This document shows, one piece after another, positions 5,891-7,465 of a stretch of DNA of 33,411 nucleotides. Within the stretch, counting starts at the first letter, position 1. Each line of letters begins with the position of its first letter. Location of the stretch: the IMG/VR virus record IMGVR_UViG_3300032331_002803, positions 1 through 33,411 of that record; one strand, written 5' to 3'. Source of the stretch: a virus. The notes beneath the pieces are model-generated. The model ran no database searches. It was not told where the DNA came from and saw only the letters and a program-made list of their open reading frames with translations. Position numbers and translations under genes: made by a program.

Positions 5891-6877
5891 CTAGAATAAT
5901 GTTTCATTTATACGATCACTGGCTGTTAATGTATAACTTGGATCATTTTCACCTAAGAATCCTGAGCCACCTGGGCCAGCAGTTTCTTTTCTGCCAATCA
6001 TTGCGCCGTGCATTGAATAGGCAACAACCATTTGCATTTGATTTTTGTCAGGCATTCGCTGTTCATTTGATTTTACTGTAAGAGTTGAGGCGGTTTGACT
6101 ACCATCCCACCAGGTTGGGATTAATGGAACATTATTGCCACCAGTTCCCATTAAAGCAGATAAAGTTTGTGTGTTGTTTTCATAAACTCTAACTACATCT
6201 CTGCGCTGGGAAATATCAAAACTTACTCCTGATTTATCATATTCCTCAAAGCCTTTATCAATGATTTTGGTAAAATTTTTTGCCTTTTTTCTGCTCTTGC
6301 TAAAATGCCCGATGCTGCTTTCGGTGAGAGCCAATATTTCCGCAGGTGTTCTCCCTGAATCTCCAGCACATCCGACAATAAAGACCCTTCGCCTTCTTTG
6401 TGGAACTCCGAAGTGCTGAGCGTCGAAAACTCTATATGCGACCCCATACCCGCGCTCAACCAGCGCCCCGATGACGGCTCCCATATCTGTTCCTTTGTTA
6501 GATGACAACAATCCAACAACATTTTCGAGGATGAAGTATTTGGCTTTTGTTTCATCAAGCAATCGCACGATTTCATAGAATAATCCTGATCTATTTCCAT
6601 CAAGACCTGCTCTTTTTCCTGCAACTGATAAATCTTGGCAAGGGAATCCCCCTGTAATGATTCCATTCTCTGGATCAAATCCTGCATTGATAAGTTGCTC
6701 ACCTGTTACCCCTTTCACATCATTAAATAGTTTTGAATATGGAAACTGTTTTGCAAGTATTGCAGATGCTTTAGGATCAATTTCAACACTAGCCACAACT
6801 TTTACTCCGCTGCGTTCTAGCGCTAAATCAAAACCACCTACACCTGCAAATAATGAAACTGCTGTTAATTGATTCAT
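5891..6877 (-). CDS. C5-cytosine DNA methyltransferase, C-terminally short
   Basis: This enzyme, about 328 aa from the ATG at 6877, has the N-terminal C5 motifs: motif I SLFAGVGGFDLALE, catalytic motif IV GFPCQDLS (Cys80), motif VI ENV and motif VIII QRRRR. It then runs into a target-recognition region and stops at TLTASDRINETLF. Family members normally continue for tens of residues with motif IX (RRLTxxExxRLQGFP type) and motif X (GNSV type). Neither is present here or in the reading frames just downstream. An in-frame TTG at 6925 lies inside the tRNA-like element, so I prefer the ATG, which follows GGGGTGAG. Confidence 0.85.
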   Translation of the reverse strand: MNQLTAVSLFAGVGGFDLALERSGVKVVASVEIDPKASAILAKQFPYSKLFNDVKGVTGEQLINAGFDPENGIITGGFPCQDLSVAGKRAGLDGNRSGLFYEIVRLLDETKAKYFILENVVGLLSSNKGTDMGAVIGALVERGYGVAYRVFDAQHFGVPQRRRRVFIVGCAGDSGRTPAEILALTESSIGHFSKSRKKAKNFTKIIDKGFEEYDKSGVSFDISQRRDVVRVYENNTQTLSALMGTGGNNVPLIPTWWDGSQTASTLTVKSNEQRMPDKNQMQMVVAYSMHGAMIGRKETAGPGGSGFLGENDPSYTLTASDRINETLF

Positions 6878-6903
6878 CTCACCCCAATCAATGTTTGTGT
6901 AGT

Positions 6904-6957
6904 GCAAGTGTTGGAATCGAACCAACTTTTCCCCCAGGAAAGCCGCCAGGCACTTGC
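6904..6957 (-). ncRNA. 54-nt tRNA-like element (acceptor stem plus T-arm)
   Basis: Read on the minus strand, GCAAGTG at 6957-6951 pairs perfectly with CACTTGC at 6910-6904, like a 7-bp acceptor stem. Before the 3' strand is a T-arm with the universal motif GGTTCGATTCC inside a 4-5 bp stem (GTTGG/CCAAC) and 7-nt loop. Only about 24 nt separate acceptor and T-arm, too few for D and anticodon arms; they can form one short hairpin (CTTTCC with GGAAAAG, one bulge). No CCA is encoded. It looks like a minimal tRNA mimic or degenerate tRNA, not a working one. Confidence 0.55.
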
Positions 6958-6960
6958 TAT

Positions 6961-6997
6961 CTTGGCGATTAAAAGGAAGGTTAAAACCGCCAAGAAT
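6961..6997 (-). other. Stem-loop between SSB-like gene and tRNA-like element
   Basis: The repeats CTTGGCG (6961-6967) and CGCCAAG (6988-6994 or close by) form a perfect 7-bp stem enclosing an A-rich loop, and TTAA pairs can extend it. On the minus strand no T-run follows, so it is not a standard terminator. It lies immediately 5' of the tRNA-like element and could be a processing site or mRNA-stabilising structure. Confidence 0.45.
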
Positions 6998-7000
6998 GTT

Positions 7001-7465
7001 TTAAACTGGTTTAGCCCCTAATTGTGCCAGTAATGCAGCAACTTCAGGTGTGATGGTGCCATTCGCCGCAGGCACTGCCGCTGCTACCGCAGGAGCAGGA
7101 GCGCTGGCTGTTCCTAAATAAGCATTTGCTTTAGCAAGAGCAGCAGCATCAGTGGTTGCATCTAATAAAATCCAAGGCGCAGATTTACCAGGCTTTGCAG
7201 TTCCCTGCCCAATGCGGGCTAGAACCTTCTGGCCGATCTTTTGCTTCAGAGAGTTGCGTAGTGCAACATTGAAAAATAAAACGCTATCGTATGATTTATT
7301 GGTATCAAGATTTACCAAAGATACTTCAACTGCTTCAGCGTCGCCGTGTACTGTCTTGATGCCTGTTTTGTAATCAGTTGGAGTTATGATTAGTAGTTGT
7401 CCTGCTAGATCAGCAACCTTGGGGCCGCTTTCACTCATTGATGGTGGTGAGAAGGTCATTCTCAT
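7001..7465 (-). CDS. SSB-like single-stranded DNA-binding protein (tentative)
   Basis: This 154-aa protein resembles a conserved actinophage protein often treated as a single-stranded DNA-binding or replication accessory factor. It has an N-terminal beta-rich core (residues about 15-115, with KVADLAGQLLIITPTDYKTG, then SVLFFNVALR and VLARIGQG) and a low-complexity Ala/Pro linker before a short helix at the C-terminus (PEVAALLAQLGAKPV). The core plus flexible tail resembles SSB organisation, although the tail is not acidic. It sits between recombination and methylation genes, and its ATG overlaps the stop of the 42-aa gene. Confidence 0.5.
   Translation of the reverse strand: MRMTFSPPSMSESGPKVADLAGQLLIITPTDYKTGIKTVHGDAEAVEVSLVNLDTNKSYDSVLFFNVALRNSLKQKIGQKVLARIGQGTAKPGKSAPWILLDATTDAAALAKANAYLGTASAPAPAVAAAVPAANGTITPEVAALLAQLGAKPV

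Follow-up and report, generated by a model that had tools for sequence, protein, structure and literature searches.

The question raised by this locus is why an RNA with the features of a tRNA, far shortened, should lie between two protein-coding genes of a virus. The window, i.e., the whole stretch of 33,411 nt that was analyzed, comes from a virus record of 33.4 kb, and the element in question occupies a gap of about 120 nt between a single-stranded DNA-binding protein (SSB)-like gene and a C5-cytosine methyltransferase gene. A preliminary description made from the letters alone had placed a tRNA-like element at 6904-6957 on the minus strand and offered three roles for it: a decoy for tRNA-targeting defense systems, a processing signal for RNase P/Z, or a degenerating tRNA. 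We confirmed the element at these coordinates, and by placing its structure, its relatives, and its genomic context side by side, a choice among possible functions can be made with graded confidence.

A miniature cloverleaf with all four helices

Read on the minus strand, with coordinates and strand checked, positions 6904-6957 give the sequence GCAAGTGCCTGGCGGCTTTCCTGGGGGAAAAGTTGGTTCGATTCCAACACTTGC, which RNAfold predicts to close into a four-way junction of acceptor, mini-D arm, middle hairpin, and T-arm (Table 1). We regard this fold as near certain. The acceptor had been described as a 7-bp stem (GCAAGTG/CACTTGC); the stem exists, but it has only 6 bp beside a 5-bp T-stem, because the C of the seventh pair also belongs to the T-stem and its G is engaged within the mini-D arm. 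The proposed T-arm with a paired stem was borne out as GTTGG/CCAAC around TTCGATT, which corresponds to the 5-bp stem and TTCRANY loop of a canonical tRNA. The statement that D and anticodon arms could not be accommodated had to be abandoned, as the 24 to 25 nt between acceptor and T-arm hold both the mini-D arm and the middle hairpin. The loop of the latter is G-rich and 4 nt long in the window, and anticodon loop geometry is absent, with neither a 7-nt loop nor U33. Free energy by itself was discarded as evidence, being nonsignificant for the element alone (z of -0.76 against shuffles, i.e., not unusually stable). The element together with the hairpin just upstream is unusually stable, with a z of -3.29 that was reached by 0 of 200 shuffles.

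Table 1. Features at the locus and the evidence for each
Feature	Position in window	Strand	Evidence
SSB-like gene, phrog_870; conserved upstream neighbor of the element	7001..7465	minus	PHROG match, 7e-27
Hairpin P1, 11-bp stem, loop TTAACCTTCCTTTT, 2 nt from the acceptor stem	6960..6995	minus	Folding, relatives
Miniature tRNA-like cloverleaf, 54 nt	6904..6957	minus	RNAfold, covariation, covariance model
Acceptor stem, 5' strand, GCAAGT	6952..6957	minus	Six of six pairs covary
Mini-D arm, GCC-TGGC-GGC, 3 bp, GG kept in loop	6942..6951	minus	Variants in relatives
Middle hairpin, TTTCC-TGGG-GGAAA, "anticodon position"	6928..6941	minus	RNAfold, parse of relatives
T-arm, GTTGG-TTCGATT-CCAAC, 5 bp	6910..6926	minus	T-loop type common to all parsed relatives
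Acceptor stem, 3' strand, ACTTGC	6904..6909	minus	Covariation
A73-C74 tail without CCA; RNase Z cut expected after the A	6902..6903	minus	Tail count
Shine-Dalgarno-like GGGG of the downstream gene	6882..6885	minus	Sequence, survey of starts and Shine-Dalgarno motifs
C5-cytosine DNA methyltransferase, downstream cargo gene, ATG at 6877	5891..6877	minus	PF00145, 3.2e-55

Compensatory changes across relatives

Related loci were gathered from viral contigs through the SSB-like protein. A T-arm (5-bp stem and TTCRANT-type loop) follows the stop codon of phrog_870 in 133 of 141 distinct stretches, against 1.4 in shuffles, and a 6/6 acceptor is found in 75 of the 133 unaligned loci, against 27 expected from shuffles; the strict acceptor search is the weaker test because the sixth pair is mismatched in many classes. 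A parser for acceptor, mini-D arm, and T-arm returned 55 distinct elements, of which some 50 were clean, with acceptors that include GCAAGT, GAAATG, GCGAGC, GCGTGG, GTGTTG, CCATTG, CCGTTG, GAAGTC, GGCGTT, and GAAGAG and with mini-D stems of GCC/GGC, GCA/TGC, GCT/AGC, GTC/GAC, and GTA/TAC.

A parser of this kind favors sequences that pair, and we therefore counted covariation on an alignment of 13 rows, A3; two MAFFT alignments (A1 and A2), in which class E or the 5' ends were mis-registered, were left out of the counts. All 182 of 182 base-pair cells in A3 are paired (100%, against 34 to 43% in slid registers), a percentage that is biased upward because the rows were drawn from parsed elements, but this choice alone does not explain the changes on both sides of 10 of the 14 pairs, including all six acceptor pairs. 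Covariation is present in the acceptor, D, and T helices, with a score of 0.683 against 0.162 in shuffles. A covariance model built from these rows recovered class E members outside the training set (E value of 6e-9) and gave one strong match at this locus in 18 of 20 virus records. When applied to 297 genomes of the class to which Streptomyces NRRL B-1347 belongs, it gave a single match, in a genome already known from the pattern search described below, and it consequently does not simply detect ordinary tRNAs.

The family, with elements of 52 to 63 nt, is uniform in some parts and free in others. The T-loop is TTCRANT or TGCAAAT in every parsed relative, and the GG of the D-loop and C56 of the T-loop, residues that take part in the elbow of tRNA, are retained. 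An A-C tail without CCA is present in 48 of 49 distinct elements, with variable sequence beyond the AC. The stack of acceptor on T-arm measures 11 bp in most classes and 12 bp in class E. The middle hairpin differs among relatives in its stem, in its length, and in its loop, which does not form an anticodon loop; GGGG is contained in most of these loops, the exceptions being L205, L206, L212, and L217.

The comparison indicates that the element is a maintained RNA with a structure selected at the RNA level and is not a chance hairpin. The relatives gave neither of the outcomes that the preliminary description had set against its own reading, i.e., loss of the stems or breakage without compensation: the stems are conserved, and the changes in them are compensated. 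This also bears on the idea of a tRNA that is losing its arms, or of a minimal tRNA that still decodes. Full tRNAs fill the same slot in Streptomyces-type phages, which makes a tRNA ancestor plausible, but pairing is perfect across very divergent sequences, the anticodon position is unconserved, and both a U33-anticodon loop and CCA are missing. The compensatory changes rule out the degenerating tRNA of the preliminary description, and we consider this explanation as a whole, with the decoding version included, highly improbable. We also considered a mini-tRNA that decodes through a Pro-like NGG anticodon and rejected it, as neither the geometry nor the position of the loop is constant in relatives.

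Relationship to known RNA families

In the window, ARAGORN reported 0 tRNA genes, its tmRNA search gave no match, and Rfam gave 0 matches at the gathering threshold. At a relaxed threshold, Rfam matches were all sub-gathering, the best on the strand of the element being tRNA-Sec (21.8 bits against 47); across six related loci, the single Rfam match (L045:7346) lies away from the element. No description of the element was found in the literature searched, from which subscription journals and preprints were excluded. Like the tRNA-like domain of tmRNA, the element combines an acceptor and T-arm with a reduced D-arm and no anticodon arm, but at 54 nt it has neither a tag reading frame nor CCA. 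The arm-reduced mitochondrial tRNAs of nematodes and mites are likewise shrunken tRNA folds; they are decoding tRNAs in which the D- or T-arm is lost, whereas the element keeps both in miniature and has no decoding loop. The element represents an RNA family uncatalogued in Rfam and tRNA annotation and is probably a variant among known tRNA-like processing substrates.

A pattern search for a mini-D arm plus T-arm beyond the family returned several matches that were rejected as relatives. Those in Pseudomonas prophages and T5-like phages are tRNA-Gly-like genes with a short D-arm, those in Patescibacteria are by eye ordinary tRNAs, and the match in L297 resembles the end of a tmRNA. The short-D-arm gene is found in L249 (4045-4129), other Pseudomonas virus contigs, L276, and L300, with a GTGGGGAAAGACCCAC hairpin before it and a gene for a small membrane protein, holin-like by eye, after it; T5-like phages carry a related tRNA-Gly. 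The Peregrinibacteria/Peribacteria tRNAs of L272, L277, L284, and L287 have a 3-bp D-stem (GCA-GGTT-TGC); ARAGORN detected the first two (Arg) and missed the last two, which are Ile(GAT)-like by eye. Further miniature tRNA-like folds were seen at L258:2960-3025 (minus strand), L244:6773-6818, L251:1543-1604, and L293:6426-6486, in unrelated contigs from rumen Clostridiales, two large phage contigs, and Streptomyces NRRL B-1347. The middle hairpin is wholly absent from the fold in L244.

The slot behind the SSB-like gene

The product of the upstream gene has no Pfam match. Its structural model is beta-rich, with moderate confidence, and the best PDB match is the ssDNA-binding protein of phage PRD1, a weak one (E value of 0.05), so that the assignment of the phrog_870 product as SSB-like is weakly supported. 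All named relatives of the gene are found in actinobacterial phages (of Streptomyces, Gordonia, Rhodococcus, Tsukamurella, and Mycobacterium), and the host of the window virus is for this reason probably an actinobacterium, as are probably the hosts of the element-carrying small phages in general. The genes on either side of the element are co-directional and would share a single transcript.

Other structures can fill the same slot. In the Streptomyces-type contigs L099, L100, L101, L102, and L103, ARAGORN identified full-size tRNAs there (Tyr, Ala, Thr, Thr, and Pro, with four different anticodons), and in L100 another tRNA-like structure lies about 100 nt beyond the slot tRNA. Behind the SSB-like gene of Streptomyces phage YDN12 (L095/L096) lies a tRNA-like structure that is larger and has two T-arms. 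The element is absent at this place in TP1604 (L089/L097), a relative of YDN12, and the two constitute a natural presence/absence pair in culturable phages. Absence was also found in Rhodococcus phages with co-directional genes and in Gordonia, Tsukamurella, and Mycobacterium phages in which the next gene is convergent, the latter showing other hairpins only. Judged from these sequences, what is kept at this slot is shape and not decoding identity.

The upstream hairpin and its loop

Of 51 distinct elements, 47 have a second hairpin, P1 in the window, that stops 0 to 4 nt short of the acceptor and whose loop mostly carries ACCTTYC. This loop is often complementary to the middle loop (ACCTTYC against GGGG), and in L206, L207, L212, and L217 purines and pyrimidines are exchanged between the two. 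Shuffling within loops reached the total complementarity in 5 of 1000 cases, i.e., the order within the loop matters, and permuting P1 and middle loops among elements reached the total of the own pairs in 330 of 2000. Since the actual pairs of loops hold no clear advantage over permuted pairs, contact between the loops is only suggestive, and a clear contact is not formed in L203, L205, L221, L222, and class B.

It could be speculated from these loops that P1 and the tRNA-like fold act uncut, as a cis-regulatory RNA that controls translation or stability of the SSB or the cargo gene and perhaps binds the SSB-like protein. The complementarity in most classes, including those with exchanged loops, and the dependence on loop order speak for such a function. 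The outcome of the permutations and the classes without clear contact speak against it, and a regulator has no need to mimic an acceptor, a T-arm, and a tail; we consider it unlikely.

The downstream edge and the exchangeable cargo gene

The 3' edge of the element can coincide with the start of the next gene. An ATG or GTG lies 0 nt after the A-C tail, without a Shine-Dalgarno motif, in 11 of 111 distinct downstream contexts, and in most of the others the gene starts 21 to 34 nt downstream, mostly behind a purine-rich, AAGGGGG-like Shine-Dalgarno motif, with some automatically assigned starts artifactual (e.g., at 77 to 81 nt) and a few contexts left without an assigned start. The 11 abutting starts encode one small protein family, and alignments of the 11 begin at residue 1, which supports the assignment of the start. 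Other phages carry the same family at different places, on or close to the stop codon of a gene upstream of it.

The cargo gene varies between phages and may encode Dcm (C5), other DNA methyltransferases, Mom-like proteins, zinc-ribbon proteins, or small unknown proteins. Could the element then be a recombination joint or insertion site for cargo swaps, in the manner of integration at the 3' ends of tRNA genes? The high variability of the downstream gene would fit, and the strongest fact in favor comes from L203/L257 (the same virus), in which the T-arm, the acceptor 3' strand, and the leader are duplicated on the far side of a small cargo gene (about 340 bp), as after capture of a cassette. 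The duplication, in the region around 3337-3420 of L203, spans 48 bases, of which 46 are identical (95.8%), and it shows for one lineage that the element can be a site of cargo capture; it does not imply that the element functions as a joint. Compensatory changes on both strands argue for selection on RNA and not on DNA identity, and a search with a 23-mer gave no exact match in the genome_contigs set, which may lack the host. On these two grounds, an attP core derived from a host tRNA was rejected. With the duplication confined to one lineage, we regard the joint as an improbable function, but it may be true as a secondary consequence of the element.

The Mom-like genes present a separate observation. 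Mom-family genes (PF25680; L086, L228, and L025) occur in some related phages and not in the window, and Mom-like loci include L086:7002-7649, L136:3071-3715, L170:4439-5095, L228:2391-3098, L025:4573-5142, and others. The first 25 or so Mom-like codons double as a 76-nt cloverleaf that resembles tRNA-Gly(UCC) and carries CCA; it is read in frame from a start codon upstream. In 13 distinct sequences, 286 of 286 pair cells of this cloverleaf are paired, and five of the six anticodon stem pairs show changes on both sides, accompanied by amino acid changes. The Mom domain begins at about residue 32 in L086 and L228, directly after the cloverleaf, and at 52 in the more divergent L025. A tRNA-Gly-like identity is suggested by TTCC in the anticodon loop and by alignment to annotated T5-like tRNA-Gly; the anticodon loop has 6 nt, the T-stem is bulged, and function as a tRNA is putative. 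Mom of phage Mu adds a glycinamide-like group, and a connection between Mom and glycyl-tRNA might be followed as a lead only.

A proposed role in operon punctuation

The fold and the selection on it, its position, P1 at its 5' edge, and start codons at its 3' edge are all observed, and we think it reasonably probable that they reflect operon punctuation, with the element acting as a processing signal between the SSB-like and cargo messages. Among the three roles offered in the preliminary description, the RNase P/Z signal is the best supported, on account of the fixed operon position, the flush P1 hairpin, the abutting start codons, and a fold that is kept while the anticodon region changes. 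We infer the following cuts. Host RNase P would recognize the acceptor/T-arm stack together with the elbow of D-loop and T-loop and cleave before G1 (window 6957), and a second cleavage, by RNase Z or another nuclease, would take place on the 3' side of A73 (window 6903). These cuts would leave the SSB message with P1 as a terminal hairpin that shields it from 3' exonucleases and would put the cargo gene on a separate message with a new 5' end, with possible effects on stability and translation. In the class E subgroup, the cargo message would start with C-AUG and be leaderless.

RNase P gauges the stack of T-stem and acceptor from the elbow and cleaves non-tRNA RNAs that bear this stack (PMC4919913); the retained D-loop GG, T-loop C, acceptor-T stack, and putative D/T elbow would match the features that it needs. 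The RNase P RNA of Escherichia coli cleaves hairpins consisting of acceptor stem, T-stem, and T-loop alone, and the first mRNA reported as an RNase P substrate is that of T4 gene 32 (PMC11143913). As gene 32 encodes the SSB of T4, there is a parallel to the SSB-like gene here that is suggestive only. In the actinobacterium P. acnes, leaderless messages are common and an obvious RNase Z homologue is lacking (PMC3848588), and in some hosts a different enzyme may therefore have to make the 3' cut.

Several observations weigh against punctuation. The stack is mostly 11 bp rather than 12 and CCA is absent, by which the efficiency of RNase P can be lowered; the G-rich middle loop and the ACCTTYC of P1 are conserved in most classes, although neither is needed for cutting alone; and the co-directional Rhodococcus phages and TP1604 manage without the element. 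Its absence where the next gene is convergent counts in favor. The same cuts would also yield a stable, excised tRNA-like RNA as a by-product, and it is conceivable that this RNA accumulates and acts in trans, as a small RNA or as a decoy for a host factor or a tRNA-targeting defense nuclease or toxin. The acceptor/T-arm and the G-rich "anticodon" loop retained across classes would suit a mimic, but the middle hairpin, which is the part read by most anticodon nucleases, varies in stem, length, and loop, there is no CCA, and a mimic would leave unexplained why the element is tied so tightly to one junction, with P1 flush against it and start codons abutting it. We hold this to be unlikely, if the least so among the alternatives considered, and the decoy role of the preliminary description gained no support from this analysis.

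Punctuation of this kind has counterparts in known systems. In mitochondria, RNase P and RNase Z excise tRNA folds that separate the genes of a transcript, which creates the mRNA ends, and some of the mRNAs are leaderless; the phage element differs in occurring once per genome, in being shrunk to 52 to 63 nt without an anticodon, and in that its cuts are predicted. Non-tRNA substrates of RNase P, such as acceptor/T-arm model hairpins, T4 gene 32 mRNA, the C4 RNA of phages P1 and P7, and E. coli operon mRNAs, share an acceptor/T-arm-like stack with it, but they are single cases, whereas the element is a covarying family of more than 100 distinct loci with a full miniature cloverleaf. A bolder version of the proposal, which we put forward tentatively and with less than even confidence, is that the small phages of a whole lineage place a fixed mark before an exchangeable cargo slot, in the form of a miniature tRNA that is built for this purpose and keeps only the determinants of RNase P and RNase Z.

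In conclusion, this analysis adds an RNA family overlooked by current tRNA and Rfam annotation. If the proposal is true, the mark would confer a separate message end on any gene placed behind it, and tRNA-processing enzymes would make the message of one subgroup leaderless, a posttranscriptional route to leaderless mRNAs. Bacterial viruses would then have evolved tRNA punctuation outside organelles, and the dozens of covarying sequences of 52 to 63 nt would constitute a near-minimal natural substrate set for recognition by RNase P and RNase Z.
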